A stretch of 28,412 nt of DNA from Calditrichota bacterium (GCA_013150955.1 JAADJD010000002.1:1-28412); one strand, 5' to 3'. Positions 1 through 27,092 are shown, counted from the stretch's first letter. Notes: generated by a model from the sequence alone, not told the origin. Translations and numbers: made by a program.

Positions 1-156
1 CAATAGCCTACGAATTACACGAATTAAAACGAATAAAAATAATGAAATTCATTGGATGATATATGGATGAAAATGTGTTTTGTGGTTTATTTGCGATTTT
101 GCAGATATTTTTTGGTTTCTATTTCGTGTGATTCGCGGTTTAATGCATTATTTGGG
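1..156 (-). repeat. CCCA/TGGG dispersed element, locus 1 (left end cut by window edge)
   Basis: First of ten loci carrying the same ~165-bp repeat. The window opens inside the left terminal inverted repeat (ACGAATTACACGAATT type). The conserved core GGATGAAAATGTG follows, then the right end AATGCATTATTTGGG. The right flank is TTTAT. The orientation matches the minus-strand gene next to it. 'Minus' here means that the strand reading CCCAAATAATGCAT at its 5' end is the minus strand; the same convention is used for all copies. Confidence 0.85.
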
Positions 157-750
157 TTTATCTCATAATTGGGGTTTAAACGCGGAGAAACCCGGTCGTT
201 TGTCATTGAAGCGCAGGATTTGACAAAACGATGTGTTCGGTTACGGAGCGAGCCTCTTAGTAAGGCGGCGAAATGAGGCCGTCGGCTGAAAGCCGTAAAA
301 AGCAATTTCCCCAGGTGGAACAGCGTGACGGCGAAAGAAATATCAACCCATCACGATTCTCCGGACGACGGCATCTGCAAATGGATCAAAAGCTTCTCCA
401 GGCTCATTCATTCTTTTCCGGATTTACCGGGAGAAACGTCCCCGAGCTCTGGTCAGCCCCGGACCAACGATTTTTCTGTTTATTGCCACAAGCGGTCGCA
501 CCCCCACAGGGAACAAGAGGGCTCCAGCGTATCCCCGCCGTTCCTTAAACGTCCAGGCCCGATTGAATCCTGCGGAAATCGATACCTGTCGCTACCTGAA
601 AAGATAATTCTGAATCAGGACCAATCAGGTTACTTCAGAAGCAATGGAATACCGCAAAATATGCCCGGAAAATCGGTGGAAAGAAAACGGTCCCGGTCGA
701 GCCAGCGCATTGGGGCGGGCGAGGGAAGCGGATTCTGCGGCTTTCCGGAC
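157..750. other. Region without a recognisable gene
   Basis: I find no reading frame here that looks like a protein on either strand. The open frames on the plus strand are rich in Ser, Arg and Pro, have no domain or convincing ribosome-binding site, and one runs antisense through the zinc-ribbon gene at 751-930. Small stem-loops are visible, for example CGGCT-GAA-AGCCG at 283-295. It could hold a decayed gene or a structured RNA, but nothing specific can be supported. Confidence 0.4.
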
Positions 751-930
751 TCAATCGTTGTTACGGGAAGATTCTTCCAGCATGGCCATGAGTTTTTCGG
801 TGTTGTGAATCAGTACCGGCATGTGTTCGGGACAAATCCACAGGGGACGTCCCTGATAGGATAAGTGGATTAAAGGAACTCGCTGGTCATCTCGCTGGCA
901 AACCAGACAGGCAGAACGCTGTTCACTCAT
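751..930 (-). CDS. Small zinc-ribbon-like protein (59 aa), unknown function
   Basis: A 59-residue cytosolic protein beginning MSEQRSACLVCQRDDQRVP. The pair CLVC near the N-terminus and CPEH near residue 37 together provide three Cys and one His, the arrangement of a small zinc-binding knuckle. The start was chosen at 930 because a near-perfect Shine-Dalgarno AGGAGG lies just upstream on the minus strand; the open frame continues further upstream but without a ribosome site. It stands alone between two repeat loci, so the context gives no function. Similar tiny zinc proteins often bind nucleic acid or partner proteins, but that is only analogy. Confidence 0.7.
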   Translation of the reverse strand: MSEQRSACLVCQRDDQRVPLIHLSYQGRPLWICPEHMPVLIHNTEKLMAMLEESSRNND

Positions 931-1064
931 GGATTCTCCTCCTTTGTATTTGATGATTTCATAAGGCATTAAAGATAGACGGAAAAGGGGAGAATTCAAC
1001 TGAAAAATAAGAATCATGGAATGAAACATCGATTATGAAACATCCTATGAATTACACGAATTAA

Positions 1065-1384
1065 GCCAGATTATGCATTGAACCACGAATGACACGAATG
1101 AACACAATTAAAAGTAATAAAAGCCATTTATGATGTCTGGATGAAAATGGGTTCCTGGATATATTTTTGTTGATCCCAGATTATGCATTAGAACCACGAA
1201 TTAACACCAATAAACATAATAAAATACGTTTGATTCTGTCTGGAGGAAAATGTTTTCCTGGATATATTCGCTATTTTGTTGATTTTTTTGAATTCATTCG
1301 CGTGATTCGTGGTTTAACGCTTTATTTGGGTTGATAATTTTTCGGAAGAATTCGCGTGAGTCGCGGTTTCATGCATGATCTGGG
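1065..1384 (-). repeat. Dispersed element, locus 2: outer copy interrupted by an inner copy
   Basis: The left half of one copy (about 1065-1174) continues after 1330 in its right half (about 1331-1384), ending ATGATCTGGG. Between them lies a complete second copy. The outer copy is flanked by ATTAA on the left and TTTAA on the right, a 5-bp duplication with one mismatch. The locus lies between two minus-strand genes and has the same orientation as both. Confidence 0.85.
1175..1330 (-). mobile_element. Inner copy of the dispersed element with perfect 5-bp target duplication
   Basis: This copy begins CCCAGATTATGCAT and ends TTTATTTGGG, 156 bp long. It is flanked on both sides by TTGAT (1170-1174 and 1331-1335). 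Removing it together with one TTGAT restores the interrupted outer copy across GTTGATAATTTTT, which matches the corresponding region of other copies (GTTGATATTTTT). This is the signature of a transposition event. Confidence 0.85.
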
Positions 1385-1401
1385 TTTAAGGACTTGCCGG
1401 A

Positions 1402-1800
1402 TTATCGTATCCGTGGCCGGAATTTGTATCCATAGTGGATCAGTCCCCGTTCACCCTGTTCACTAATTTTGCGAAGCACCATCTCCACTGGCATGCCAAT
1501 CTCCACCTGATCCGGATCCACATCGGTGAGCTGTGCAGTGATGCGTGGGCCTTCTTCCAGATCGATTAGAGCCACCACGTAGGGGACAAAGAATTCAAAT
1601 TTCGGGGTGCTCTGGTAAATGATGGTATAGCTATACACCGTGCCCCTTCCGGATAAGCGGAAATCTTCCAGCTGGCGGTTTTTACAGGCGGGACATACCT
1701 GTCGGGGTGGGAAATGGATCTGATTGCAATTCTGGCATCTTGTGCCGGCCAGCTGATACCGTTGCTTGCGCAATCGCCAGTTTCCGGGAATACCCATCAT
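1402..1800 (-). CDS. Zn-ribbon OB-fold protein (DUF35) of the HMG-CoA synthase/thiolase complex
   Basis: A 132-residue protein with an N-terminal rubredoxin-like zinc ribbon (Cys22, Cys25, Cys36, Cys39 in CQNC and CPAC) followed by an OB-fold domain that includes GRGTVYSYTIIY and PYVVALIDLEEGPRI. This is the DUF35/ChsH2-like architecture. In archaea such a protein bridges acetoacetyl-CoA thiolase and HMG-CoA synthase and provides a shared CoA site, so the intermediate is channelled. It is the last gene of the three-gene operon, after synthase and thiolase. I chose the ATG at 1800, preceded by GAGGA; a GTG at 1824 that overlaps the thiolase end by 14 bases is an alternative without a ribosome site. 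Family assignment is confident; the partnership is inferred from adjacency. Confidence 0.9.
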   Translation of the reverse strand: MMGIPGNWRLRKQRYQLAGTRCQNCNQIHFPPRQVCPACKNRQLEDFRLSGRGTVYSYTIIYQSTPKFEFFVPYVVALIDLEEGPRITAQLTDVDPDQVEIGMPVEMVLRKISEQGERGLIHYGYKFRPRIR

Positions 1801-1810
1801 CGCCGGTTCC

Positions 1811-2974
1811 TCATAAACGCTCACGGGTTAAAATCGTCGTAATTATAGTGGCCCCGCTGCCCCCAATGTTCTGGGTCATGGCAATGCGGGCATCGGGCAC
1901 CTGAATCGCCTCCGGGGCCTGTCCCCGCAATTGCAGGGTGGCTTCAACAATTTGGTACAGACCCGTTGCCCCTACCGGGTGGCCGCGTGCTTTCAGCCCC
2001 CCAAAAGTGGAAATGGGCAACCGGCCATCAATGGCAAAATGGCCTTCATTGGCTAAACGCACGGCGGTTCCTCGTTCCGCAAAACCGCTGCCTTCCAGAG
2101 ATAGGGCCGACATGATGCTGAACGCGTCGTGCAACTCGAATAACTGGATGTCCCGGTGGGTCAATCCCGACGTTTTGAACGCCTTGTGAACGCTCCGTTC
2201 CGCTGCCTTTAGCCATAGGGGATTTTCCCGGTTGTCCAGGGCAATGGTGTCGGTGCTTACCTCACAGGCGGCTACCCAGATGGGCCGATTGGGAAATCGC
2301 TTCAGTTGATCGATGCTGGTGACCACAACGGCGGAAGCTCCATCCGCAATGGGGCTGGAATCCAGCAGGTTGACGGGATCGGCCACCATTTTTGCCCGTT
2401 CGTACTGATCCCGGTTGACCAGGTGGCGAAACATGGCATTGGGATTATGCACGGCGTTTCGGTGCGCGATTTCGATGAATGCGGAAAAATCGGATTTGTG
2501 GTACCGATATTCGTACATGTATCGCCGCATGAGCAGGGCGTTGAGTGCCACAAAACTGATGCCCATGGCGGTTTCGTAGTCGGCATCGGCAGCGGAGGCC
2601 AGACCATCGGTGGTTTTGTGAGTGCTGGTTTCGGTAAGCTTTTCGACACCGACGGCCAGTGCCACTTCTGCAGCTCCGGAAGCCACCGCCAGCACCGCCT
2701 GGCGAAATGCGGCGGCACCAGAACCACAGGCTGCTTCCGCCTTAATGGCTTCCACACCGGTCAATCCCGCATATTCTGCAATTAGCGTGGCCAGATGCTC
2801 CTGACCGGTCAATGTGCCGCTTAACATGTTCCCCACGTAAAACACATCCACCGTGTCAATCTGACACTCGTCCAGCGCCTGCCAGACGGCCTGCACGGCC
2901 AGCTCTCGTAAGCCCGCATCCCAGTGTTCCCGTACCGGTGTCTGTCCAATTCCAACAATGGCGACAGGTCGCAT
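1811..2974 (-). CDS. Acetoacetyl-CoA thiolase, archaeal/SCP2-like type
   Basis: A 387-residue thiolase-fold enzyme expected to condense two acetyl-CoA into acetoacetyl-CoA. The nucleophile is Cys83 in AEAACGSGAAAF. Other active-site motifs are His282 in ELHDAF and His332 in ARGHPVGATG. The C-terminal loop reads QNIGGSGAT, so the second catalytic Cys of classical biosynthetic thiolases (CxGGG) is absent, as is usual in archaeal and SCP2-type thiolases. The ATG at 2974 has GGAG upstream and lies 14 bases after the HMG-CoA synthase stop. With its neighbours it forms the thiolase/synthase/DUF35 set that starts the mevalonate pathway. Without the context it could be called a lipid-transfer-type thiolase of unknown substrate; the adjacent synthase makes the acetoacetyl-CoA role likely. 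Confidence 0.92.
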   Translation of the reverse strand: MRPVAIVGIGQTPVREHWDAGLRELAVQAVWQALDECQIDTVDVFYVGNMLSGTLTGQEHLATLIAEYAGLTGVEAIKAEAACGSGAAAFRQAVLAVASGAAEVALAVGVEKLTETSTHKTTDGLASAADADYETAMGISFVALNALLMRRYMYEYRYHKSDFSAFIEIAHRNAVHNPNAMFRHLVNRDQYERAKMVADPVNLLDSSPIADGASAVVVTSIDQLKRFPNRPIWVAACEVSTDTIALDNRENPLWLKAAERSVHKAFKTSGLTHRDIQLFELHDAFSIMSALSLEGSGFAERGTAVRLANEGHFAIDGRLPISTFGGLKARGHPVGATGLYQIVEATLQLRGQAPEAIQVPDARIAMTQNIGGSGATIITTILTRERL

Positions 2975-2988
2975 AATGCACTCCGCCC

Positions 2989-4077
2989 TTAATGCATGAC
3001 AATTTTATTCCGCCACTTGGCATAGGTGGCGTAATCGATGATTTTGGCCCGCTGGATGTAGACGCGGGTCAATGGTGCCCGTTCTCGCCGTTCAAGAATG
3101 GCTTCCGTAACCCGAAAGCTCATGGCATCGCTGCCAGCTCCGGATCCAAAACTGACCACCAGGATCCGGTCTTCTGGCCTGGCTTCGTCCAGCACCGCGG
3201 TTAATCCCAGCGGCGAGGCCCCGGCATAGGTGTTACCAATGAACGGTGCCAGTAAGCCCGTGCGCACCTGCTCTTCCCGAAATCCCAGCATTTTGGCGAC
3301 CTTTAGTGGAAATTTCGTGTTGGGTTGATGAAATACCACCGCGGCGTAGTCCCGGGGACGTGTGTTCAACCCTTCCATGAGTTTGCGTGCTGCGTGAGTA
3401 ATGTGGTGGAAATACGCCGGTTCCCCGGTGAAGCGGTGGCCGTGTTCAGGATACAGCTGGTGTGCCCGTCGGAAGAAGTCGGGCGTATCGGTCACATAAC
3501 TGAAGGAGCCTTCCAGCACCGCCAGTGAGTTTTCCGCCAGCCCGATGACGAATGCGGCACCGCCAGCCGCTGCCGTATATTCCAGTGCGTCGCCGGGACG
3601 CCCCTGAGCCGTATCCATGGCAATGGCCAGCACATAGTCCGCCATTTTACTGCCCACAAAGCCAAAGCCAGCCTGCATGGCCTCGGTGCCGGCCTTGCAG
3701 GCAAATTCAAAATCTGCGGTACTGACGTTGGGGGTGATGCCCAGGGCCTGAGCAACGATGGTGCCGGATGGTTTCACGGCGTAGGGGTGAGATTCGGAGC
3801 CAATCCAGACTGCGCGGATTTTTTCGGGAGAGACCGCCGCGCGCGACAGGGCATTTTCTGCGGCTTCGATGGCCATGGTGATGGTATCTTCATCCGGCCC
3901 CGGCACGCTTTTCTGATCGATGGGCAATACCTCTGCATCCTGCGTTCCCCGCCACAGACGGGCAATTTCCCTTGCCGGCAGGCGATACCGCGGAATGTAC
4001 GCGCCATAACCCACAATACCCACCGGCCGATCCGGTATCAATATTTCTGCCAAGGATGTTTCCCCTGTATTTACCAC
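2989..4077 (-). CDS. Hydroxymethylglutaryl-CoA synthase, archaeal type
   Basis: A 362-residue enzyme that condenses acetyl-CoA with acetoacetyl-CoA to HMG-CoA, the precursor of mevalonate and isoprenoids. It carries the signature segments of archaeal synthases: [14 protein letters not shown] near the N-terminus, [15 protein letters not shown] (Glu95), the nucleophile Cys127 in [31 protein letters not shown], and the catalytic His250 in [11 protein letters not shown]. It is the first gene of the operon. The start is uncertain: the longest frame begins at a GTG (4077) that sits almost on top of AAGGA. A TTG at 4053, with GGGGA eight bases upstream, is a plausible alternative, giving a protein close to the archaeal length. 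No HMG-CoA reductase or mevalonate kinase is visible in the window. Confidence 0.94.
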
Positions 4078-4164
4078 TCCTTATTTTTCGTCTTGAATGA
4101 ACACAAAATTTAATGATAAAACATTTATTTTGAAAAAAAGAATTTTGCGGAAACGCCTCTTTTA

Positions 4165-4456
4165 TCCCGGATGATGCATTCGCCTGCGAATGACACGAAT
4201 TAACCCGAACAAAAATAATAAACTCAGATGATGCCTTAAACCACGAATTGCACGAATTAACACAAATAGAACCAATTAAATCCATTGGATTGTGTCTGGA
4301 TGAAAATGTGTTTCAGGGTTTATTCGCGATTTTGTAGGTATTTTTTGTTTTCATTCGTGTGATTCGTAGTTTATCGCATAATTTGGGATGATTCGAATTC
4401 ATTCGCGTGATTCGTGGTTTAGTGTATTATTTGGTTTAATGCATTATTGGGGTTTA
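4165..4456 (-). repeat. Dispersed element, locus 3: composite of nested copies
   Basis: The outer left half begins CCCGGATGATGCATT. A full inner copy runs from about 4223 (CTCAGATGATGCC) to 4387 (ATAATTTGGG). After it come the outer right half and a second, partly duplicated right end finishing ATTATTGGGG. Flanks of the inner copy (ATAAA and ATGAT) no longer match well, so this may be an older insertion. The locus lies between the HMG-CoA synthase and methyltransferase genes, both minus, and is co-oriented with them. Confidence 0.8.
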
Positions 4457-4552
4457 TCGGGAATTGTTTACAGCAGCATGGAAAGTGCGGCATTTGGCCG
4501 ATTTTTCGACGTCATGAAGGACGGAGCGGGAGGGATGAGCCATCGATCTGGT

Positions 4553-5269
4553 CTATGTCTGCTTTCGGCGAATCTTGTAAATCGAGATGGTCAGCGGTTT
4601 CCTGGATAGATTCACCGTTTCCTCGAAACGCTGGTAAACGAATCCCGCTGCTTCAACCAGCTGGAAAAAACGACGGGCAATGGCGCGATTGGGTTCGCTT
4701 AAATAGATGACGCCGTCCGGAGCCAGTAACTGCTGGAAGGTTTCCACCAGCGGATGAAAATGTCGCTCCTCATAGGCCACATCGGAAGCCAGGATGATGT
4801 CGAATACCCTATCGGCGTCCGGGATGCGCCAATCCAGCCGGTAACTTCTGGCCGGGGTTTGTAAATTCATCATCCAGTTTAATTCGGCCAGTCGCAGGGC
4901 ATCTTCTTTTAAATCGGTAAAGACCACGTCGCCCCCTTTGAGACCGGCCATGACTCCCACCAGGCCTGTGCCGCATCCCAGCTCGACCACCTGTTGCCCC
5001 CGGAAGTGCAATTCGCGAGCAATGAATCGCGACAGGGCAATGGCCGATGGCCAGATCTCCGCCCAGTAGGGGATATCGTCTTCTGCGGGAATGACCTGCT
5101 CGGCCACTTCGTCCAGCACCTGATTGATGTTTGCCACGCGGTACATGTTCAGCCGAAAGCCTTCGATCTTCAGTTCCGTGAGTTCCAGTTGGTACATTCG
5201 GGAAAGCCACTGAAACAGGGCATCGAATCGAAGCGCAATGTCTGGCATTTCCGGAAAGGATGCGTTCAT
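4553..5269 (-). CDS. SAM-dependent methyltransferase (protein-methyltransferase-like, family 16)
   Basis: A 238-residue class I methyltransferase. The SAM-binding motif I is VVELGCGTGLVGV, followed by an acidic strand end in VVFTDLKEDAL and the post-motif segment FDIILASDVAYEERHF. The segment PYWAEIWPSAIALSRFI just before motif I is typical of the METTL-type lysine methyltransferase family (Methyltransf_16), whose members modify proteins rather than small molecules. About 80 N-terminal residues precede the catalytic domain and are unrecognised. The gene follows the GH57 gene by 115 bases on the same strand and might be its operon tail, though nothing suggests a shared function. The substrate cannot be read from the sequence. 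Confidence 0.8.
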   Translation of the reverse strand: MNASFPEMPDIALRFDALFQWLSRMYQLELTELKIEGFRLNMYRVANINQVLDEVAEQVIPAEDDIPYWAEIWPSAIALSRFIARELHFRGQQVVELGCGTGLVGVMAGLKGGDVVFTDLKEDALRLAELNWMMNLQTPARSYRLDWRIPDADRVFDIILASDVAYEERHFHPLVETFQQLLAPDGVIYLSEPNRAIARRFFQLVEAAGFVYQRFEETVNLSRKPLTISIYKIRRKQT

Positions 5270-5363
5270 GATCTCCAGATGCTATTCTTATGAGGAAACG
5301 TTGCCTGTTTCACCGCTCCCTGGTGTTTATCCAGAAAACAATCGTTCACAATTGGGACTCCGG

Positions 5364-5378
5364 ATTCCATTGTGGAAT
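5364..5378. terminator. Small hairpin just past the GH57 stop
   Basis: ATTCCA-TTG-TGGAAT forms a six-base-pair stem six bases beyond the end of the GH57 gene. No T-run follows on the minus strand, so an intrinsic terminator is only a weak suggestion; it might instead stabilise a 3' end. Confidence 0.25.
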
Positions 5379-5384
5379 GGGACA

Positions 5385-9834: not shown

Positions 9835-9844
9835 TGGCGATTGA

Positions 9845-14040: not shown

Positions 14041-14204
14041 CCCAAATAAAGTGTAGACCACGGATCACGCGAATGAATTTGAAAAAAATCAACAAAATCG
14101 CGAATATATCCGGGAAAACATTTTCATCCAGATTGAATCCAGTGCATTGTATTATTTTTGTTGGTGTGAATTCGTGTCATTCGTAGGCGAATGTATAATC
14201 TGGG
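14041..14204 (+). repeat. Dispersed element, locus 4
   Basis: A 164-bp copy beginning CCCAAATAAAGTG and ending TGTATAATCTGGG. It is flanked by a perfect 5-bp direct duplication TTCAA (14036-14040 and 14205-14209). It lies between plus-strand genes and is oriented with them. Confidence 0.88.
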
Positions 14205-15189: not shown

Positions 15190-15354
15190 CCCAGATAATG
15201 CATGAAACCGTGAATCACGCGAATGGAACCCAAAAATATCTGCAAAATCGCGAATAACCCCTGGAACACATTTTCATCCCGATTTCATCAAGTGGATTTT
15301 ATTATTTTTATTCGTTTTAATTCGTGTAATTCGTAGGCGAATGCATGATCCGGG
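15190..15354 (+). repeat. Dispersed element, locus 5
   Basis: A 165-bp copy beginning CCCAGATAATGCATG and ending ATGCATGATCCGGG. It is flanked by the perfect direct duplication ATGAA (15185-15189 and 15355-15359). It is co-oriented with the plus-strand genes around it. Confidence 0.88.
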
Positions 15355-16877: not shown

Positions 16878-18122
16878 ATGACGAGCCCCAACTCCCCCCT
16901 CATCGCCCACATTGATGCGGATGCGTTTTTTGCTTCTGTGGAGCAGGGATTTAATCCCCTGCTGCGGGGCAGGCCGGTCATTGTAGGTGGAACGGAAAAT
17001 CAACGCGGCGTGGTGCACACCGCCAGTTACGAGGCCCGTGCCCGCGGTGTGCGCACCGGTATGCCCCTGGTGCAGGCAAAGGAAATCTGCCCCGATGCGG
17101 TTTTCCTCAAAGGCCATTTTCAGCATTATCAGGCGGCCTCGCTGGTGTTGCAGGAAATTTACCTGCGTTACACCCCGGTGGTGGAATTTACCTCCCTGGA
17201 TGACGCCTACCTGGATCTGACCGGAACCCGGCATCTGTTCATTGGCCCTGGCAAGCTTCCCGATCCCGAGGCCCTGGGACGGGAAATTCAGCAGGCGGTG
17301 GATCGTGCCCTGCACATTGGGGTGTCCATTGGACTGGCCAGCAACAAGGTGGTGGCCCGCATTGCCTCGGGACGCCGGAAGCCCCGCGGTGTGGTTTACG
17401 TGCCACCGGGCAGGGAAAAGGAATTTCTGGCCCCCTTGCCGGTGGATGAGCTTCCCGGAGTGGGACGGGTGGCCAAGGAAAAGCTGACCGATTTGAAGAT
17501 TTTTACCATTGGTCAGCTGGCTGCCATGCCCGAACAGGTACTGGAAGAGGTTTTTGGGGCCAATGGCAAAAGGCTGTGGGAACTGGCCAACGGCATCGAT
17601 CCGCGTCCCGTGCGCACCCGAATTCTGCCCAAACAGATCAGTCGCGAAACCACGTTCGAGGAGGACACCATGGATCGAACGTTGATTCTGTCCACCCTGC
17701 GCTACCTGACGGAACGCATCGCCAGCAAATTGCGTCAGCAGGGATTGAAGGCCCGGCGCATGGGGGTGAAGATTCGTTACTCGGACTTCACCCAGCACCA
17801 GCAGAGCTGCACGCTTCCTCAGGCAACGGACAACGCGGGGGAACTTTTTGCGGCCATTGAGCAACGGATTTGCCAGCTTCCCTGGCGCCGCCTGCGGGTG
17901 CGGCACGTGGGTGTCCAGGCCAGTCTCATCGAATGGAGTTGCCTGCAACCCCGCCTGTTCGACGATCCGCAGCGACAGGAGTTGCTGGACGCCGCTGTGG
18001 ATGCCATTCGCCAGAAGTTCGGCTTCATGGCCATCCTGCCGGCCGACACGCTGGAGCTACGCAAAAAATATCGCATCGAAAAATCCGGCTACATCCTGCA
18101 TTCCCCGGCATTAACCCGGTGA
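16878..18122 (+). CDS. dinB: DNA polymerase IV, Y-family translesion polymerase
   Basis: A 414-residue error-prone polymerase that copies past DNA lesions. The palm begins IAHIDADAFFASVEQ with metal ligand Asp13. The second site reads VEFTSLDDAYLDLTG with Asp108 and Asp109, where the family normally has Asp-Glu. The helix-hairpin-helix region is PLPVDELPGVGRVAKEKLTDL. The little-finger domain spans about 250-350. A QPRLFDD motif at 357-363 resembles the sliding-clamp-binding motif of UmuC. No clear ribosome site precedes the ATG. It is separated from the lexA cluster by 5 kb. The last 14 codons and stop lie in a 45-bp repeat found again at 18920. Confidence 0.93.
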   Translation: MTSPNSPLIAHIDADAFFASVEQGFNPLLRGRPVIVGGTENQRGVVHTASYEARARGVRTGMPLVQAKEICPDAVFLKGHFQHYQAASLVLQEIYLRYTPVVEFTSLDDAYLDLTGTRHLFIGPGKLPDPEALGREIQQAVDRALHIGVSIGLASNKVVARIASGRRKPRGVVYVPPGREKEFLAPLPVDELPGVGRVAKEKLTDLKIFTIGQLAAMPEQVLEEVFGANGKRLWELANGIDPRPVRTRILPKQISRETTFEEDTMDRTLILSTLRYLTERIASKLRQQGLKARRMGVKIRYSDFTQHQQSCTLPQATDNAGELFAAIEQRICQLPWRRLRVRHVGVQASLIEWSCLQPRLFDDPQRQELLDAAVDAIRQKFGFMAILPADTLELRKKYRIEKSGYILHSPALTR

Positions 18123-18123
18123 T
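18079..18123 (+). repeat. Left copy of a perfect 45-bp direct repeat (end of dinB)
   Basis: This segment, running from AAAAATCCGGC to CCCGGTGAT, includes the last codons and stop of dinB. It is repeated base for base at 18920-18964, offset by 841 bp. The repeat brackets an AT-rich insert. Confidence 0.95.
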
Positions 18124-18919
18124 AGAACTAATTATTGTTTTGATTTTATAATCTTATCGTGTATTTTTATTTATAAATTGTTTGATGTTTTTACAGTTAA
18201 TTTTTTGTCCTTTATGTGTGGGTAAATTATGAAAATTTTTCCTTTTTCTATCCTTTTGCTTATTTTTTGTTTTTCCTATTTGTTTTCACAATTACATAAA
18301 GAAAATGAATTTCGTTTGAGTATTTTGCTAACTGTTTCCGCAGATGAAGATCTGCAAAGTGAAATTTTAAGTTATTTAACTCGTGAATTTCGTTCGATTC
18401 CAGATGTGGAAATAGTTGAAGAAAATCCTGATTGGATAATTTCTGTAGTCGCATCAAAGTTAATGTTAAAAAATGGATATATTGCAGGGATTGCTATTTC
18501 AGTTTCCTATATTCAAATGCCAAATAAAAAGCTTAAATATGCAATAAATAGAGCTCTTTATCCAATAAATAATGAAGATAAATCGGTACTTTATTTATTA
18601 AATAAATCTATTTTATTTTTCCTCAATTTATATGTAAAAAATTTAACGTATTTCCATCATCATGAATTATTGTTGGTTCCATTAGAAGATTTAAAACAAA
18701 TTTGTCAAAAATTCGTTGCTGAATTTGATGGTGAGTATCTTGAGCCTCAACGAAAAAGATTTTATGAAGACCAACAAAATTCTAAAAAATCAAATAGTGG
18801 ATTGGATATCGATTTTGATTTTTTTGAATTGGACACTTTATTACATTCTCCAAATAAGTAAGTTTTGGTATTTTTAAAATTTAGGTATCGATATTGATTA
18901 TTTAAAAAACACTTTCAGA
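18124..18919. mobile_element. AT-rich insert bracketed by the dinB 3'-end duplication
   Basis: A block of about 800 bp far richer in A+T than the DNA on both sides, with sharp boundaries at the two 45-bp repeats. It holds one gene (18229-18861) and no recombinase. The arrangement resembles an integrative cassette that uses the 3' end of a host gene as attachment site and restores the reading frame. A duplication formed by recombination of horizontally acquired DNA is the alternative. The mobile label is inference; the repeat and composition shift are visible. Confidence 0.6.
18229..18861 (+). CDS. Exported protein of unknown function in the AT-rich insert
   Basis: A 210-residue protein with a clear N-terminal signal peptide: MKIFPFSILLLIFCFSYLFS, a Lys followed by a hydrophobic stretch. 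There is no lipobox Cys at the expected position, so secretion to the periplasm rather than lipidation is likely. The mature part alternates short strands and helices and has an acidic C-terminal tail (DIDFDFFELD). No domain is recognised. Codon use is extremely AT-rich, unlike dinB just upstream but similar to the LVIVD protein at the window end. It is the only gene in the insert. Confidence 0.75.
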   Translation: MKIFPFSILLLIFCFSYLFSQLHKENEFRLSILLTVSADEDLQSEILSYLTREFRSIPDVEIVEENPDWIISVVASKLMLKNGYIAGIAISVSYIQMPNKKLKYAINRALYPINNEDKSVLYLLNKSILFFLNLYVKNLTYFHHHELLLVPLEDLKQICQKFVAEFDGEYLEPQRKRFYEDQQNSKKSNSGLDIDFDFFELDTLLHSPNK

Positions 18920-18964
18920 AAAAATCCGGCTACATCCTGCATTCCCCGGCATTAACCCGGTGAT
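18920..18964 (+). repeat. Right copy of the 45-bp direct repeat
   Basis: Identical to 18079-18123. It lies outside any gene and appears to be the original 3' end of dinB displaced by the insert. The DNA that follows (TTGGTCGGTAAA and on) returns to the normal base composition. Confidence 0.95.
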
Positions 18965-19080
18965 TGGTCGGTAAATATCGGGGGTTGCTACCGTCCTTTT
19001 GAGGGGGATGAAAACGACCCACCTGTTTCGGGAAAGTTGGGGTGCGCGGGGTTATCTGAACTGTCCTGAATGGGATTGAA

Positions 19081-19244
19081 CCCAGATTATGCATTCGACC
19101 ACGAATTACACGAATTAACACGAATAAAATTAATAAAATACATTGGATTATTTCTGGATGAAAATGTGTTTCGAGGTTTATTCATGATTTTATTGATATT
19201 TTTGGTTGTATTCGCGTGATTCGCGGTTTAATGCAAAATTTGGG
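19081..19244 (-). repeat. Dispersed element, locus 6, abutting the GGDEF stop codon
   Basis: A 164-bp copy beginning CCCAGATTATGCATT and ending AAAATTTGGG. Flanks are TTGAA (19076-19080) and TTAAA (19245-19249), a 5-bp duplication with one mismatch. The right flank includes the TAA stop of the HDOD-GGDEF gene, so the insertion lies exactly at the end of that reading frame. It is co-oriented with that minus-strand gene. Confidence 0.88.
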
Positions 19245-20783
19245 TTAAATATTCTGAAATCCGATGCACTGGTTGCCCCCGTTCGTTTTTGCATGCTGCA
19301 GGGCTTCCAGTACCATGTTTAAGAGATGCTCTTTCTTCATCAGCGAAAAATTGGGGATAAGGGTGGCGTAGCCAATGGCCACCGTCAGATGATGTTTCAT
19401 GTCCCGCAGGGGATCCAGAAACGGGTGGCGATCCACGTTTTTTCGGATTTTTTCGGCCACAAAATGTACCGGTACCTGTCCCGTATGGGGCAGAATGATT
19501 GCAAATTCGTCGCCCCCATAACGGGCCAACAAATCCGCCTGGCGAAGGTTACGTTTTAAAATCTCGGCCACCTGCTCCAGAATCGCATTACCGGTCTTAA
19601 AACCATATGTTTGATTAAACAGGGTGAAATGGTCAATGTCAATGATCAGCAGCGAAATGGGATGTTCATAGCGTGCAGACTGAGAAACGGCTTTATGGAG
19701 AAATTCGTGGAAGTAGGCATGATTGTAAAGGCCGGTGATGGGATCCAGGAAGTTGTTCAGAGAAATCTCCGCCCGTACCCGATTGAGTTCTTCCCTTAAT
19801 TTTTCAATCTGCTCCCGACTTTTCCCGAGTTCTTTCAACAAATCTTCATACCCAATGATTCGTTTTTTAACAAATTCTTTGTTTTGCAGGAACAGATGGG
19901 TGACCGATTGTTCTTCCAGCTGGGAAAATCCCAGTCCACGGGCAAAGCCAGAAATCTTTTCCAGAGATGTTCGGATGAGGTGGGGGAGTGTCTCCGGCGA
20001 GCGCTGAAAGTACCGATTGTACCGGGCTTCAATTTCATTAAATCGAAGGGCATCAGGAGCTTCCAGGGTAACTCGAGCCAGTTCCGCGGCCACATTGAGC
20101 ACGCCCGCCAGCTTCTGTACCATGGCATCCTCTGGCGGCTGACGATCGATGGCGTGATGGAACCGAATTGGGGGCAGGAATTCCGGTGGAAATCCCCAGC
20201 GCTGTACAATGTCTGCAGAAAGTTCCGCGTGCGTCCAGCCCAGATTTTTTGCCTCTTCGCGCTCCAGATCCCTGGCCTTGCTTTTAATGGTCATCAATCG
20301 CTCATAAAGTTCGGGAATGCATCGGGACAGCGCCAGGTAGGCCACATCCTGGAGCATGGATTGCAGGTAGACTTCTTCAGGCCTGGGAATGGCCAGCTCC
20401 CGCGACATCTGCTCCGCAAACACTGCGGATAAGAAAATTTGCTGCCGGAAAAGGGGGTAATCCAGCTGTTCGTACCGATTGATCGGTTCCAGATGAGATA
20501 GCCAGAGGCTAAAAATTAAATTGCGCAAAACCGGAATGGGAACCAGGTCGACTAAAGTCTTGCCATCCTGGATTTTTTTTCGGAAATTGAAATATCGACT
20601 ATTAACGATGGGGTAGAGAACTTCTTTATATTCGCTGATGAGAGGAAGAACGGCCCGATTGGCGCGCCCGGTGCGATTGGTGCGTTTTTCATACGACCGC
20701 TGAATCAATTCCAGAAGAATGTTTGGTGGTGCTGGAAACCGGGGAGATTTCTCAAAGATTTCCAGTACACGTTCTTTGTTCAT
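19245..20783 (-). CDS. HDOD-GGDEF diguanylate cyclase
   Basis: A 512-residue cytosolic signalling protein. Residues about 10-230 form an HDOD domain (PAPPNILLELIQRSY, LRNLIFSLWLSHLEP, EVYLQSMLQDVAYLALSR, GWTHAELSADIVQRWGFP). A coiled-coil linker spans about 315-345. The catalytic GGDEF domain covers the rest, starting DPITGLYNHAYFHEFL. The active loop at 423-427 is intact GGDEF. The inhibitory I-site RQAD is at 414-417, so the enzyme probably makes cyclic di-GMP under product inhibition. HDOD domains commonly sense or relay signals in place of an HD phosphohydrolase. Its ribosome site is only weakly purine-rich. A 76-bp palindromic element lies 28 bases upstream. It is monocistronic. Confidence 0.92.
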   Translation of the reverse strand: MNKERVLEIFEKSPRFPAPPNILLELIQRSYEKRTNRTGRANRAVLPLISEYKEVLYPIVNSRYFNFRKKIQDGKTLVDLVPIPVLRNLIFSLWLSHLEPINRYEQLDYPLFRQQIFLSAVFAEQMSRELAIPRPEEVYLQSMLQDVAYLALSRCIPELYERLMTIKSKARDLEREEAKNLGWTHAELSADIVQRWGFPPEFLPPIRFHHAIDRQPPEDAMVQKLAGVLNVAAELARVTLEAPDALRFNEIEARYNRYFQRSPETLPHLIRTSLEKISGFARGLGFSQLEEQSVTHLFLQNKEFVKKRIIGYEDLLKELGKSREQIEKLREELNRVRAEISLNNFLDPITGLYNHAYFHEFLHKAVSQSARYEHPISLLIIDIDHFTLFNQTYGFKTGNAILEQVAEILKRNLRQADLLARYGGDEFAIILPHTGQVPVHFVAEKIRKNVDRHPFLDPLRDMKHHLTVAIGYATLIPNFSLMKKEHLLNMVLEALQHAKTNGGNQCIGFQNI

Positions 20784-21106: not shown

Positions 21107-21271
21107 CCCAAATAATGCATAAAACCGCGAAACACACGAATGAAACCAAAAAATATCTACAAAATCGTGAATAAACCCCGGAATACATTTTCATCCGGAT
21201 ACAATCCAATGCATTTTATTTGTTTTATTTGTGTTAATTCGTGTAATTCGTAGGTTAATGCATAATCTGGG
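21107..21271 (+). repeat. Dispersed element, locus 7
   Basis: A 165-bp copy from CCCAAATAATGCAT to ATGCATAATCTGGG with a perfect 5-bp duplication TTAAA (21102-21106 and 21272-21276). It sits in the divergent region and is oriented with the plus-strand AbrB/PIN operon that follows. Confidence 0.88.
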
Positions 21272-21426
21272 TTAAAGGATGGCTTCCTGAACCGGGAAGT
21301 GTGGCGGGACTGACAGGGGGTGGAGTGGTCTTGAAGTCAAAAAGCACCGGTTGCCGTGTTGAAGAAATAAATCGTTTGTATCCCGGAAGGGAGGTTGCTA
21401 TCTTTACTAAAAACAACGGGGTGCAA

Positions 21427-21624: not shown

Positions 21625-21642
21625 CCACAGCAGGTTACGCTC

Positions 21643-22077
21643 ATGCGACTATTTTTAGATGAAAGTGCCTGGATAGCGGTGCTGGATCGCCAGCATGATC
21701 AGCACGAGGCATTCAAGCGCTATTTTAACGAGGCCCTGCAAAATGGCACCAAACTTTTTACCAGCAATGTGGCCGTGGGATTGGCGTTAAGTGAATTGAA
21801 AGAGCGCATTGGTCTGGAAAAAAGCCTCAAATTTTATGAGATACTGGAAGAAGCTTATCTGGTCAATCACATTCGTATCCTGTGGGTGGGACGGCGCGCA
21901 CAGAAGGAGGCCCTTCGCTGGATGCGACGTTACCATGAATTACCATTGGGATTGTTTGATTTTGCCCATGCGGTATTGATGGATCGACGCCGCATTCATA
22001 CGATTTTAACCCAGAAAACCGCATTTACACGGATTGGTTTCCGTACAATACCGGAAGGGGAGGGAACGGCTTTATGA
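21643..22077 (+). CDS. PIN-domain toxin (VapC-like)
   Basis: A 144-residue PIN protein. The first metal ligand is Asp6 in MRLFLDESAWIAVLDR. An acidic residue is expected in SNVAVGLALSELKERIG, and a conserved Asp occurs in LGLFDFAHAVLMDRRR, the typical third site. These make a metal-dependent RNase likely. It is paired with the AbrB antitoxin upstream. Its stop overlaps the next start (ATG within TTTATGATG), so it is translationally coupled to the YqeC-like gene, which is unusual for a toxin-antitoxin pair. Activity is inferred from family. Confidence 0.82.
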   Translation: MRLFLDESAWIAVLDRQHDQHEAFKRYFNEALQNGTKLFTSNVAVGLALSELKERIGLEKSLKFYEILEEAYLVNHIRILWVGRRAQKEALRWMRRYHELPLGLFDFAHAVLMDRRRIHTILTQKTAFTRIGFRTIPEGEGTAL

Positions 22078-22814
22078 TGTGGAAAGAGGCACTGGTTCTG
22101 GATCCTCGCTATCGGACGTTTGCCTTTGCGGGTGGAAAAGGGCGGAAGTATTTGATTCGTAAATTTGCGGAGGAACTGGCCCGCGAGCAGCAAACGGTGT
22201 TGATTACCGGGCTGGAATCCATAAAATTGCCTGTGGCTGGCTCTATTGTGGTGGGGCAGGACATTCCCATTCTGATGAATCAGGTGGAGCGGGCGTTCCA
22301 GAATAATCCCATCGTGGATGCCGGAAAAAGCTTGATGGATGCCATGCTGGAGGGCTTTCATCTGGATGAACTGGAGGCCATTCAGCAACAATCGCCAGCC
22401 GATTATTTGTTGATTGAACTAGGAGGGGTGCAGGAAAAGCCCATCCTGGATACACGCTTCATTAAAAAGTGGGCCCGTACCCGCATCTGGGATCAGCTCA
22501 TTTTTTGCATGGAAATTGGGGTGATCGATACCGAACTCACTCAACAAAGCACGGAAGATTTGAAACGATTTTCCCGCAACTTCGATTCAACCCTGTCCCA
22601 GGAAACGTTTCTGGAGTATTTGCTGGATGAATCCCGCGGATTGGGGAAACTGTTCCGGGCTTCCTGGCCAGCCCTTTTCCTGTTTACCGATGTGGAGACC
22701 ACCCCGCTGGAAAATCGGGCGCTGGCCATTGCAAAAGAATTGCACCAGCAGGGGATTACCCATCTGGCCCTTGCCAATCTGAAGGAAAATCGGATTCGGA
22801 AGCTGCGGCCATGA
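22074..22814 (+). CDS. YqeC-like protein (putative selenium-dependent hydroxylase maturation factor)
   Basis: A 246-residue soluble protein that matches the layout of YqeC: an N-terminal P-loop-like segment FAFAGGKGRKYLIRKFAEEL, a central acidic strand DYLLIELGG followed by a Pro-Ile segment, then VIDTEL and RNFDSTLSQETFLEYLL, and a C-terminal ALAIAKELHQQGITHLALANL. In canonical YqeC the P-loop reads GAGGKTT; here the Thr is replaced (GGKGRK), so nucleotide binding may be altered. The YqeC/YqeB pair is linked by phylogenetic profiling to selenium-dependent molybdenum hydroxylases. No such enzyme is in the window. Assignment is by pattern and by the neighbour. Confidence 0.6.
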   Translation: MMWKEALVLDPRYRTFAFAGGKGRKYLIRKFAEELAREQQTVLITGLESIKLPVAGSIVVGQDIPILMNQVERAFQNNPIVDAGKSLMDAMLEGFHLDELEAIQQQSPADYLLIELGGVQEKPILDTRFIKKWARTRIWDQLIFCMEIGVIDTELTQQSTEDLKRFSRNFDSTLSQETFLEYLLDESRGLGKLFRASWPALFLFTDVETTPLENRALAIAKELHQQGITHLALANLKENRIRKLRP

Positions 22815-23656
22815 AACCAGCCCAAACCATTCTCATCCTGGGAGGGAATGAACTGGCCAGCGCAACTGCCCTGGAGCTGGTTCAGGCGGGCTTTGCGGTG
22901 ATGCTCTACGTTTCCCCGGATGAAACCTACCTGCGATATCCCCTTTGTTTTGGCGAAGCGCTCCGGGCCGGTCAAAAGACCATTGGGGATCTAACAGCCT
23001 CCATTATCCCTGAAGAAAAGCTGGCGCAAATTCAGGGAAAAACATTCGCCGAGAAAATGATCCAGGTGGCGCAATTTCTTCTGCTGGATCGAATGTTGCC
23101 CGTGCTTTCGGACGTCCCGCTGAGGGAACTGCTTGCTGTTCTGGAAACCGTTATCGTGATCAATACGCTTCCTGAGGAAACGCTCAAGCTTCCCGAAGAC
23201 GCAGCGAATGGAATATTCCTGGGGTGTTTCCCGGAGCACCGGGGACATTCCCAATATCGACTGTTGGTGGAAACCCGCTGGAATTACCAGCTGGGTAAGA
23301 TCGTTCCCCCGGATGCGGAAGACCTTCACAAGCATCGGCTGGATCCCCATTTTTTTCATTTTCCTTTTCAGACCTGTCATACCCCGATCGAAGGCCTGTG
23401 GGTATCGGTAAAGGAAATCGGAGAAACCATTCGATATAACGAGGCCATTGGAAAAGTAGACGCAATCGAGATTCGTTCTCCTTACGATGGGCAACTCTGG
23501 GGAATTACCCACAGTGGGCAGTTTGTTGCGGCGGGACAGAATGTTGCGCTAATCTACACCGGTCGCCCTACGGAATTTTATCGTGACTACAGTTTTCAGG
23601 AACGTGCAGTTGCACGGGGATTTTTATCGGCGGTTCTGAAATTAATCCGGCAGTAA
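22811..23656 (+). CDS. YqeB-like protein (selenium-dependent molybdenum hydroxylase system)
   Basis: A 281-residue protein with an N-terminal Rossmann-like segment TILILGGNELASATALELVQ and the following QAGFAVMLYVSPDETYLRYP and CFGEALRAG. These match YqeB, which reads GAGDLATG, RLxxAGF and RRxVxFxEAVxxG at the same places. The C-terminus has a small beta-barrel-like part: IRSPYDGQLWGITHSGQFVAAGQNVALIYTG. Overlap with the YqeC-like gene is four bases. Function in selenium or molybdenum cofactor insertion is inferred from the family. The stop TAA at 23654-23656 sits directly against repeat locus 8. Confidence 0.65.
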   Translation: MKPAQTILILGGNELASATALELVQAGFAVMLYVSPDETYLRYPLCFGEALRAGQKTIGDLTASIIPEEKLAQIQGKTFAEKMIQVAQFLLLDRMLPVLSDVPLRELLAVLETVIVINTLPEETLKLPEDAANGIFLGCFPEHRGHSQYRLLVETRWNYQLGKIVPPDAEDLHKHRLDPHFFHFPFQTCHTPIEGLWVSVKEIGETIRYNEAIGKVDAIEIRSPYDGQLWGITHSGQFVAAGQNVALIYTGRPTEFYRDYSFQERAVARGFLSAVLKLIRQ

Positions 23657-23657
23657 A

Positions 23658-23993
23658 TGCAATTTATGCATGAAACCGTGAATCACGCGAATGAATCCAG
23701 AAGATATCCACAAAATCACGAAGAAACCCAAATAATGCATTGAACCGCGAATCACGCGAATGAATTCGAATAATATCAACAAAATAACGAATATATCCAG
23801 GAAAACATTTTCATCCAGATAGAGTCAAGTGCATTTTATTGTTGTTATTGGTGTTAATTCGTGAAATTCATGGTTCTAATGCATGATCTGGGATAAATCC
23901 TGAAACCAATTTTTATGCAGATATAATCAAATGAAATTTGTTATTTTTGTTCGTGTTATTTTGTGTAGTTCATAAGCGAATGCATAATCCGGG
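23658..23993 (+). repeat. Dispersed element, locus 8: outer copy interrupted by an inner copy
   Basis: The outer left half (AATTTATGCATGAAACC onward) begins two bases after the YqeB stop. It breaks at 23726 and resumes at 23893 (ATAAATCCTGAAACC), ending GCATAATCCGGG at 23993. Flanks of the outer copy (GTAAA and ACAAA) differ at two bases. The orientation is that of the plus-strand genes on both sides. Confidence 0.85.
23727..23892 (+). mobile_element. Inner copy of the dispersed element inserted within locus 8
   Basis: A 166-bp copy from CCCAAATAATGCATTG to GCATGATCTGGG. Flanking pentamers are AGAAA and ATAAA; the uninterrupted family consensus at this place reads GAATAAACC, so the left flank differs by a point change from a true ATAAA duplication. 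Removing it rejoins the two outer halves in register. Confidence 0.82.
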
Positions 23994-24024
23994 ACAAATG
24001 CCGTAAAACGGAAGGGGTGAATTG

Positions 24025-25368
24025 ATGGGTAACTTTAGTCAACTGGTGGCTACCGTAGGCAATTGGGTGTGGGGGGCTCCATTAATTATCCTGTTAGTGG
24101 GAACGGGCATCTGGTTAACCATTCGGTTGCGGGGTTTGCAATTTACCCGCCTGTTTCATGCCCTGTATCTGGCATTAATCAAACGAAAAGAAGAAACCGA
24201 TCAGCCGGGAGATATCACCCATTTTCAGGCGTTGATGACGGCGCTATCGGCAACGGTGGGTACCGGCAATATAGCCGGAGTTGCCACGGCAATTGCTACC
24301 GGTGGGCCGGGGGCCTTATTCTGGATGTGGATTACCGGCCTTTTTGGCATGGCCACCAAATATTCGGAGGCGGTGCTGGCTGTGAAGTATCGGATAAAGG
24401 ATCGCTATGGCACCATGAGCGGTGGCCCCATGTACTACATCAGTCAGGGATTAGGCTGGAAGTGGCTGGGAGCGCTATTTGCGGTGTTTGCCTCCATTTC
24501 TGCCTTTGGCATTGGAAACATGGTACAGTCCAACTCCGTTGCCGATGCGCTGGAAAGTACCTTTCAGTTACCGTTCTGGCTAACCGGATTGGTGCTGATG
24601 ATGGCTACGGCTCTGGTCATCATTGGTGGCATTCGGAGCATTGGTCGGGTGACCGGGTTTCTGGTGCCATTCATGATTGTGTTTTACATGGGCAGTTCTT
24701 TGATCATTTTGCTGTTAAATATTCAGGCTATTCCAGAGGCTTTTTATCTTATTTTCCGCTCGGCCTTCTCTCCTACCGCGGCCACCGGGGGATTTCTGGG
24801 CGCCACGGTCATGCTTACCATTCGCATGGGCGTAGCGCGAGGGGTATTTTCTAACGAATCGGGACTGGGCAGTTCTCCCATCGCAGCAGCCGCCGCGCAA
24901 ACCAAAGATCCGGTAACCCAGGCGCTGGTTTCCATGACCCAGACGTTCATCGATACGCTGGTGGTGTGCACGTTAACGGGCCTGGTGTTGATTACCACCC
25001 ACACCTGGTATAGCGGCCATACCGGTGCGGAATTAACCACCATTGCGTTCAGTCAGGGGCTGGGCAGTGTGATCGGAAAGTATATTGTTTCCATTGGCCT
25101 GGCCTTGTTCGCTTATTCAACCATTCTGGGGTGGAGCTATTATGGCGAAAAGTCCATTGAGTTTTTGCTGGGCGAAAAGGCGGTGATGCCTTACCGCTAC
25201 ATATTTACGCTGTTTGTCGGCATTGGTGCCATTGCCGAGTTGGAGATTGTCTGGAGTATTGCAGATATTTTTAATGGGTTGATGGCCTTCCCCAATCTGG
25301 TAGGACTTTTAGCATTAACGCCAGTCATTGTGCAGGAAACCCGCCGTTACTTTGATGCGCCTCGATGA
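24025..25368 (+). CDS. Sodium:alanine/glycine symporter (AGCS family)
   Basis: A 447-residue inner-membrane transporter with about ten to eleven hydrophobic segments. The family signatures are present: [43 protein letters not shown], and [22 protein letters not shown]. These line the sodium and amino-acid sites, so uptake of alanine, glycine or a related small neutral amino acid coupled to sodium is expected. The ATG at 24025 follows GAAGGGGTG; a TTG one codon earlier is also possible. The gene is monocistronic between repeat loci 8 and 9. Confidence 0.93.
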
Positions 25369-25391
25369 ATTAACAAGACAGACAAAACAAT

Positions 25392-25422
25392 CCGGGAACT
25401 CCACAGGCCGTGGAATTTCCGG
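25392..25422 (+). terminator. Stem-loop after the symporter gene
   Basis: CCGGGAACTCCAC and GTGGAATTTCCGG form a 13-bp stem with one wobble and one mismatch around AGGCC, 24 bases past the symporter stop. There is no T-run, so it may be a Rho-independent terminator without tail or a 3'-end stabiliser. Confidence 0.4.
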
Positions 25423-25503
25423 AGATCAGGGCCTTAGTCTCGTATCGGTACGAATTGGAACTCGCAACCGCTCATGAAATAGTAAGCTGCTATCAGGGAT
25501 AAA

Positions 25504-25673
25504 CCCAAATAATGCATTTAACCGTGAATCACGCGAATGAACCCAAAGGAAAGCATCTCCACAAACAGCAAATAATCCTGGAAACAAATTTTCATCAAGA
25601 TCTAATCCAATGGATTTTGTTATTTTTATTTGTGTTAATTCGTGTAATTCGTGGTTCTAATGCATGATCTGGG
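25504..25673 (+). repeat. Dispersed element, locus 9
   Basis: A 170-bp copy from CCCAAATAATGCATTT to ATGCATGATCTGGG. Flanks are ATAAA (25499-25503) and TTAAA (25674-25678), one mismatch. It lies between plus-strand genes and is co-oriented with them. Confidence 0.86.
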
Positions 25674-25794
25674 TTAAAAGCGGAGGGATCTGTTTCACCT
25701 GTATGCATTTGCGAAAAGGAAAATTCCAAAGGATCAATCTTTTTTTGGGCAATCCGATGATTGTCCTGTATTTTATTATGAAACATTGCGAAAA

Positions 25795-26418
25795 ATGATG
25801 GGGCTTTGGATGGATCGGTCTTCTTCACAGGATAGTTTGCCACGGACACACAATCCGGTTTTACACTGGCTTGGAAAGCTGATGTTGAAATTGCCTGGTT
25901 GGAAGCTGAAGGGTACATTCCCGGATATCCCCAAATTGGTAGTAATTGTGGCACCGCACACTTCCAACTGGGATTTTTATTTTGGTCTGGCGGCGAAGTT
26001 TACTCTGGGAATTCAGGCTCACTGGTTGGGAAAGCATACCCTGTTTCGCTGGCCGATCCGGCGATTGTTGATTGGACTGGGAGGCATTCCCATTGACCGC
26101 AGCAAGCGAAGTGGGGTGGTGGATCAGCTGGTGGCGCTTTTTCAGCAGCGGAAAACCATGATTCTTGGACTGGCGCCCGAGGGTACCCGCCGATGGATGC
26201 CCCGCTGGAAAACGGGATTCTATTACACCGCATTGAAAGCGAATATTCCAATCTTAATGGGTTATATTGATTATTTAAAGAAGGAAATCGGGATTGGGCC
26301 GTTAATTTATCCAACTGGAGATATCCGAAAGGATTTTCAAATCATTCGCGATTTTTACCGAAATGTCGTGCCCAAAAAGCCGGAGCAATTTGCTTTGCCG
26401 GATCTGGAGCAGTTGTAA
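25795..26418 (+). CDS. PlsC-like lysophospholipid acyltransferase
   Basis: About 207 residues, membrane-associated. The acyltransferase HX4D motif is VAPHTSNWDFYFGL, with catalytic His and Asp. The phosphate-binding motif is LAPEGTRRWMPRWKTGFYYTAL, and GGIPIDRS lies between them, in the order of the PlsC family. It probably transfers an acyl group to a lysophospholipid or related acceptor. Start is uncertain: ATG at 25795 or 25798, ATG at 25810 or TTG at 25786, none with a clear ribosome site. No other lipid gene is adjacent. Confidence 0.85.
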   Translation: MMGLWMDRSSSQDSLPRTHNPVLHWLGKLMLKLPGWKLKGTFPDIPKLVVIVAPHTSNWDFYFGLAAKFTLGIQAHWLGKHTLFRWPIRRLLIGLGGIPIDRSKRSGVVDQLVALFQQRKTMILGLAPEGTRRWMPRWKTGFYYTALKANIPILMGYIDYLKKEIGIGPLIYPTGDIRKDFQIIRDFYRNVVPKKPEQFALPDLEQL

Positions 26419-26482
26419 ACGGTGTTCCGAACGAAGGGAGATGTTTTGTTAAAGAACATACATAGAGGAGGGGAGAATACCG

Positions 26483-26860
26483 AAAATCCACATTCCCAAA
26501 TCCACAATCCAAAATCCGACATCCGCAATCCGACATCCGCAATCCGCAATCATTTCCGGTTGCCCTACAGGCAACACAAGGTATCGCTATTGGGTTTCGT
26601 GTCCCCCACGCGTTGCGTGGGGCTAACCTCTTTTTGCCCTTCGGGCAAATCGTTTCCACCAATGGCCCCACCTTCCGGAACGTAAACTCAGACCTCAGAC
26701 CTCCATCCCGGAAATTTGCCCCCAAATTCGCATTCCGACATCCGACATCCGAAATCCCCACCCCCTTCCGCCCCACAGGGGCACCATACGGTAGCCCGGA
26801 GTAACGCTCCGGGGATCGGAGAGATTCACCCAAAAAACACATGCGCCCTGTAAGGGCACA
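26483..26860. repeat. Hairpin array with degenerate heptamer tracts
   Basis: A non-coding stretch with two kinds of repeat. Degenerate tracts built on ATCCGCA/ATCCGAC occupy about 26483-26553 and 26725-26755. Between and after them are short perfect stem-loops: GTTGCC/GGCAAC (26559-26575), CCCCACGC/GCGTGGGG (26604-26622), TTTGCCC/GGGCAAA (26633-26649), GCCCC/GGGGC (26770-26782), CCCGGAG/CTCCGGG (26795-26813) and a GCCC/GGGC stem (26842-26860). The open frames across it are low-complexity artefacts of these tracts. It ends at repeat locus 10. Confidence 0.75.
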
Positions 26861-26865
26861 ATTAT

Positions 26866-27030
26866 CCCAAATAATGCATTAAACCGCAAATCACACGAAT
26901 GAACCCAAACCGTATCCACAAAATCGCGAATATACCCCAAAATAAATTTTCATTTAGATTTTATTTAATGTATTTGATTATTTTTATTTGTGTTAATTCG
27001 TGCAATTCGTGGTTTAATGAATAATCTGGG
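26866..27030 (+). repeat. Dispersed element, locus 10
   Basis: A 165-bp copy from CCCAAATAATGCATT to AATAATCTGGG. Flanks are ATTAT (26861-26865) and TTTAT (27031-27035), one mismatch. It directly follows the hairpin array. Confidence 0.85.
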
Positions 27031-27092
27031 TTTATTATATTTGTTCGTGTTAATTCGTGTCATTCGTAGGCTAATGCGTAATCTGTGTTAAA
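27031..27092 (+). repeat. Detached right half of another dispersed-element copy
   Basis: TTTGTTCGTGTTAATTCGTG onward to GCGTAATCTGTG matches only the right third of the family. Its left part is not found upstream of locus 10, so it was probably lost when the hairpin array or the neighbouring copy arrived. Confidence 0.75.

Follow-up and report, generated by a model that had tools for sequence, protein, structure and literature searches.

Inverted-repeat elements in the window and in the genome

We analysed a window of 28,412 nucleotides (the whole stretch of DNA under study, positions 1-28412 of contig C17) from a Calditrichota bacterium (GCA_013150955.1, JAADJD010000002.1; genome G000), whose assembly comprises 4.07 Mb in 66 contigs. 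A preliminary description of this window had proposed that one family of ~165-bp repeats occupies ten of its loci as miniature inverted-repeat transposable elements (MITEs). The family was recovered at 1-156, 1065-1384, 4166-4452, 14041-14204, 15190-15354, 19081-19244, 21107-21271, 23658-23993, 25504-25673 and 26866-27087, and the CCCA and TGGG ends, the imperfect terminal inverted repeats (TIRs) of ~40 bp and the central box described for it were borne out at these loci. The individual features, with flanking pentamers and target-site duplications (TSDs), are as follows.

1..156, minus strand: element truncated where the contig begins; its CCCAAATAATGCATT end occupies 142-156, with TTTAT as outer flank
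1065..1384, minus strand: older host element that the insertion at 1175-1330 divides in two
1175..1330, minus strand: nested 156-bp element; perfect TSD TTGAT (ATCAA in element orientation); best join takes out exactly 5 bp
4166..4222, minus strand: solo right arm of 57 bp, adjoining a full copy; scar of self-insertion
4223..4387, minus strand: full element, flanks ATAAA / ATGAT
4388..4452, minus strand: two more element ends, at 4435 and at 4452, left over from older copies
14041..14204, plus strand: full element, perfect TSD TTCAA
15190..15354, plus strand: full element, perfect TSD ATGAA
19081..19244, minus strand: full element, flanks TTGAA / TTAAA
21107..21271, plus strand: full 165-bp element, perfect TSD TTAAA
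23658..23993, plus strand: older host element into which the copy at 23727-23892 has inserted
23727..23892, plus strand: nested element at the host's internal ATAAA site, flanks AGAAA / ATAAA; best join takes out exactly 5 bp
25504..25673, plus strand: full 170-bp element, flanks ATAAA / TTAAA
26866..27030, plus strand: full element, flanks ATTAT / TTTAT
27031..27087, plus strand: extra tandem right arm, followed by flank TTAAA

Direct reading of the flanks confirmed the perfect pentamers reported earlier at 1175-1330 (TTGAT), 14041 (TTCAA), 15190 (ATGAA) and 21107 (TTAAA), together with the one-mismatch pairs at 19081, 25504 and 26866. Of the copies tallied earlier (at least 14, whole or partial), several are nested insertions or solo right arms (38-57 bp) and not independent insertions.

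A profile built from full copies gave a consensus of 165 bp that starts with CCCAAATAATGCATTAAACCGCG and ends with GCTAATGCATAATCTGGG. Elements are mostly 134-182 bp long, hold no transposase gene, begin with CCCA and finish with TGGG, and carry TIRs (left arm CCCAAATAATGCATTAAACCGCGAATCACGCG; right arm, as reverse complement, CCCAGATTATGCATTAGCCTACGAATTACACG) on either side of the conserved central box. The family is by no means confined to the window. In the 4.07 Mb, its end motif CCCARATWATGCATT (at most 1 mismatch) has 888 matches, compared with 3 for a reversed-pattern control. We searched with the profile a sample of 822,902 bp (20.2% of the genome), which can be considered unbiased since it includes 176 of the 888 motif matches when 180 are expected. 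This 0.82-Mb sample contained 268 non-overlapping copies covering 3.7% of its length: 122 were near-complete, 100 retained the right end only, 34 the left end only, and 12 neither end. Scaled to the genome, these figures extrapolate to ~1,300 whole or partial copies, of which ~600 are near-complete, and to ~3.7% of the genome. The family itself is new and its kind already known. The exact repeat string was absent from the open-licence papers searched, a scope that does not establish priority, and the arm motif ATTCGTGTAATTCGTGG had no match in 1.34 Mb of loci from diverse phyla.

Nested insertions, target sites and truncated arms

Copies that have inserted into other copies provide the most direct view of the insertion process. 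The preliminary description had looked to orthologous empty sites for this purpose. The congener G001 retains the gene order, and none of the window elements was found at the 4 orthologous loci compared; its intergenic DNA, however, has diverged too far for a single pentamer to be read or for junctions to be defined at base level. Nested sites therefore served as the empty-site test. For each near-full copy, a script joined the two flanks with a single pentamer retained, and the joined sequence was compared with the element profile. In 16 cases it matched a host copy across the junction (E < 1e-24). The two pentamers were identical in 9 of them and differed by one base in the other 7, with none worse, and the best host score was reached by removing exactly 5 bases in 9 cases, six in one and none in six. 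Two of the 16 lie in the window, at 1175-1330 (TTGAT) and at 23727-23892 (the ATAAA site). Since both flanks of a nested copy certainly derive from one target, these sites are direct evidence of insertion with duplication of 5 bp, and we consider it proven that the elements insert in this manner.

The 5 bases outside the element ends fit the pattern WTNAW at 297 of 371 ends, a pattern found at 2.5% of all positions and, within 200 bp of elements, at 3.0%. Because flanks obey WTNAW so strictly, about 8-10% of pentamer pairs are expected to agree by chance, and shuffled pairs are needed as a control. Identical 5-bp flanks occurred in 17 of 62 near-full copies against a shuffled mean of 5.9, and the peak was confined to k=5, with 0 at k=3, 4 and 6. 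For isolated copies, i.e. those outside nested sites, an exact duplication was present in 13 of 43 against 3.4 expected from shuffling. Flank identity above chance had been set beforehand as a test of the transposition claim; the signal is real but weak. Among the 21 isolated copies with two or more flank mismatches, 12 have lost WTNAW on a side, a sign of decay, and 9 carry two different WTNAW pentamers.

Truncated copies begin at preferred positions of the model (109-113, 117-119 and 126-128), which all coincide with WTNAW-like sites of the right arm, and they directly adjoin a full copy. Many truncated arms are scars of self-insertion. We infer that insertion inside a copy of the same orientation generates tandemly repeated arms that later contract, swapping flanks in the process, and swapped flanks could likewise come from exchange between distant copies. 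The scarcity of exact duplications at isolated copies would then reflect flanks that have decayed or been shuffled between copies. Two kinds of composite movement were considered and set aside. Units of an element plus an extra arm had matching outer flanks in 5 of 34 cases (2.8 expected) and offer no general explanation, and segments between neighbouring elements gave no signal (3 of 19; 1.9 expected). The self-insertions illustrate how 5-bp duplications become scrambled and call for caution when MITEs are judged on flank identity alone.

A candidate partner of the IS1380 family

In a search with PF13701, the IS1380-type domain, a single locus was identified, where contig C18 begins (Pfam E=1e-40). 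Both of its reading frames match the NCBIfam model NF033539 (IS1380 family transposase): a long piece scores 219 bits (cut-off 180) and spans profile positions 67-416, and a short piece spans 1-66 of 419. Contig C18 starts inside the insertion sequence (IS), and the end of contig C14 has the first 33 bases of C18 in common and supplies the other IS end, so that the combined IS measures about 1,459-1,467 bp. More IS ends lie at the ends of contigs C12, C13, C19, C21, C27, C35 and C44, and an older diverged piece lies in C8. Such clustering at contig ends is the expected pattern for a multicopy IS that collapsed in assembly. At L183 1036-1266, the transposase is divided at profile position 66/67 between two frames that overlap, whether through a frameshift, an effect of assembly or recoding.

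The IS ends, CCCAGATTACGCATTAGA and CCCAGATTACGCAATAGA, have the form CCCAGATTACGCAWTAGA. Scored with a matrix of element ends they reach 24.3 and 22.4, the element median being 23.9, and equal scores occur at only 2 of 1.57 million background positions. WTNAW flanks are present at 10 of 10 IS ends; three left ends have TTAAA and three right ends TTAAA on the same strand (reverse complement TTTAA), which agree as sets, left and right ends being on different contigs. Within the IS1380 family, IS1247 is described with 5-bp direct repeats (PMC3281130), and insertion of ISEcp1 duplicates 5 bp of AT-rich target (PMC2887853). The resident IS shares with this family the NF033539 transposase, and the elements' 5-bp AT-rich duplication and the C-rich ends likewise agree with it; the window element differs in having no transposase and in resembling the resident IS only in its terminal 17-18 bp. 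Judged from sequence, the repeats are a MITE family, since every defining feature open to examination was found: shortness without a transposase, TIRs, a TSD, and ends like those of a resident autonomous IS. Because end sequence, target, duplication size and co-occurrence agree, the family is very probably mobilised in trans by the IS1380-family IS of the same genome. The earlier reading of a non-autonomous DDE-type MITE with a 5-bp AT-rich TSD and its enzyme elsewhere thereby gains support from the nested empty sites and from an IS with matching ends, the very kind of partner it had proposed to look for.

The elements have been inserted at WTNAW pentamers with 5-bp duplication, also into one another, and several copies exist of the IS, whose terminal 18 bp match theirs and whose flanks are likewise WTNAW. 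In the mechanism that we propose, the IS1380 transposase would bind the shared CCCARATWAYGCAWTA ends, cut at CCCA/TGGG and join the ends to the target at WTNAW with a stagger of 5 bp. Insertion at WTNAW within older copies would yield directly repeated arms that contract via slippage or recombination, and this contraction would produce the many solo right arms and, together with decay, the mismatched flanks. Copies would persist mainly between genes, most often convergent ones, insertions elsewhere being purged by selection.

Several observations weigh against mobilisation by the IS1380 transposase or against simple insertion with 5-bp duplication. The best join removes 0 bp in 6 of 16 nested cases, probably because the AT-rich host arm varies in length. 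Of the isolated copies, only ~30% retain an exact TSD and half differ at two or more positions, and decay alone does not explain the 9 of 21 mismatched copies that keep WTNAW on both sides. The IS1380 transposase gene, complete otherwise, is split by a frameshift as assembled, whether real or an assembly effect, and the two flanks of any single IS copy are not visible with left and right ends on separate contigs. Finally, element and IS are alike only over the terminal ~17-18 bp, so that simple internal deletion of the resident IS does not account for the element.

A rival reading has ordinary MITEs moved by another resident transposase (the IS982-like one at C14, the IS1634-like one at C36 or a different DDE_Tnp_1 copy); the likeness to IS1380 ends would then be accidental or a matter of descent only. 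Other DDE transposases do exist in the genome, IS1634-like elements likewise tend toward 5-6 bp duplications, and the IS982-like IS has CCCG ends and a MITE-like family of its own. However, the ends of the latter (CCCGTTGTGCTAATT) are unlike those of the elements, the IS1380 locus is the only one among the DDE_Tnp_1 loci that sits between element-type ends, and the IS1380 ends combine their rare match (the 2 in 1.57 million positions above) with WTNAW flanks in common, which makes this alternative improbable. Examined as partners, the remaining DDE_Tnp_1 loci were rejected for want of element-type ends and the IS982-like IS (L054) because its ends belong to another small family. That second, rarer repeat family is found at 27141-27260 and at L054 1084-2092 and 2779-2995, with ends CCCGTTGTGCTAATTAGACAAC that occur 9 times in 0.82 Mb. 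Its ends are common to the ~1-kb IS982-family IS on C14, making a second MITE/IS pair in the same genome.

Genomic position, relatives and known systems

Long open reading frames (ORFs) occupy 82% of the sample yet hold only 2.1% of element bases. Elements were present in 38 of 61 convergent gaps, 76 of 246 co-directional gaps and 12 of 63 divergent gaps (convergent versus divergent, p ~1e-6), positional figures that are approximate given a gene list from a crude ORF call. Selection against promoter damage is enough to explain this bias, and a terminator role between convergent genes is possible. Single-copy RNA folding was unremarkable (z -0.1 to -2.3), and Rfam gave 0 matches in the window at the gathering threshold.

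The almost exclusively intergenic placement and the enrichment between convergent genes, together with the modest flank identity outside nested sites, could also suit non-mobile palindromes of the REP/ERIC kind, spread by recombination or selected, for example, for transcription termination, whose flank identity would be a shared AT-rich boundary. We regard this as very unlikely. Nested copies break a continuous host copy with 5-bp duplications, a strong counter-argument; in addition, the peak at k=5 has no counterpart at k=3, 4 or 6, the ends match those of a DDE IS, and neither RNA folding nor Rfam lends it support. Site-specific recombination with 5-bp coupling sequences, as in Tn916, would account for the 9 isolated copies with two different WTNAW pentamers but is extremely improbable, as 16 of 16 nested pentamer pairs agree to within one base and the enzyme encoded by the IS with those ends is a DDE transposase.

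Elsewhere in the window, a perfect 45-bp direct repeat (18079-18123, 18920-18964) of the 3' end of a DNA polymerase IV-like gene flanks an AT-rich segment of ~800 bp with an ORF at 18229-18861; it looks as though a segment inserted and the gene end was duplicated. Short imperfect repeats with AATCCGACATCCGC-type units lie in an intergenic region, at 26495-26558 and 26721-26770.

The burst of elements is specific to the source species among the 40 genomes compared. G001, in which gene order is conserved at ~77% nucleotide identity, has one clear element of 313 bp with ATAAT on both sides (L180 2437-2747, contig C15 of G001); the usual centre of this element is replaced by another palindromic repeat (ACCACAAAGACTCGAAAATC...). 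No IS1380 transposase was found in G001 and no comparable transposase in G001-G015, where end-motif counts were at background except for the one clear element of G001. Across window 23623-24066, spacing differs from that of G001 by 340 bp, near the 336-bp nested insertion plus 5. Window segment 1411-18122 appears inverted relative to G001, and both breakpoints (909-1411 and 18122-19252) hold element copies; these have the same orientation, so that simple recombination between inverted repeats is no explanation for the inversion. In more distant relatives, end-motif counts were at background, with a few short arm-like matches. Among order- or class-level relatives, G017 (a single-contig 4.98-Mb genome) holds a distant IS1380 IS (31% identity) with ends CCTAAATTTCTAATG (CCTAAAT), one copy of which has TTTAA on both sides. 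The inner arm motif TTAATTCGTGTAATTCGTGG occurs in relatives (L206, L217, L208) as short palindromes with other outer ends, and the interior may therefore go back to an older and more widespread repeat that was captured between ends of the IS1380 type.

Bacterial MITEs with known partners include MITEPye1 with IS1182 and the Tn3-derived miniature elements (TIMEs) with Tn3, which have 1-3 or single copies per genome (PMC11578231, PMC4133298). They share with the present family a short, non-coding structure, TIRs like those of a resident IS, direct repeats and intergenic location; here, instead, we find ~1,300 copies including partial ones, heavy self-insertion and an IS1380 partner. TIMEs have Tn3-type inverted repeats of ~38 bp (GGGG...). 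The elements do not conform to this type, their ends CCCARATWATGCAT matching the IS1380 IS, a Tn3 transposase itself not having been searched for. ERIC, Chunjie (Geobacter) and Correia are also high-copy imperfect intergenic palindromes with many truncated copies, and their ends and sequences differ from those of the window element. REP and IS200-type palindromes are likewise intergenic palindromic repeats; REPs are shorter, are tied to HUH enzymes and lack target duplication, whereas the duplication here is of the DDE type with 5 bp.

No IS1380-driven MITE was found described in the open-licence papers naming both the IS1380 family and miniature inverted repeats, searched partly by keyword, and no paper in the open-licence literature combined MITE and Caldithrix. 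A review of MITEs in prokaryotes from 2024 makes no mention of IS1380, and the largest copy number found in it is 711, for ERIC in Photorhabdus (PMC10969869). The family described here thus seems to widen the size range of bacterial MITE bursts as well as the range of transposase families known to drive them. We suggest only tentatively that one lineage may have undergone an IS1380-driven burst beyond the bacterial cases of that review (~1,300 copies, ~3.7%), in which mutual targeting would have led to self-insertion and arm contraction and hence to tandem-arm derivatives, and whose survivors may act as two-way transcription stops between convergent genes. Intergenic repeats that lacked an explanation become a defined pair of MITE and partner, with known ends, a 5-bp WTNAW target, a candidate enzyme, and a congener without the burst.

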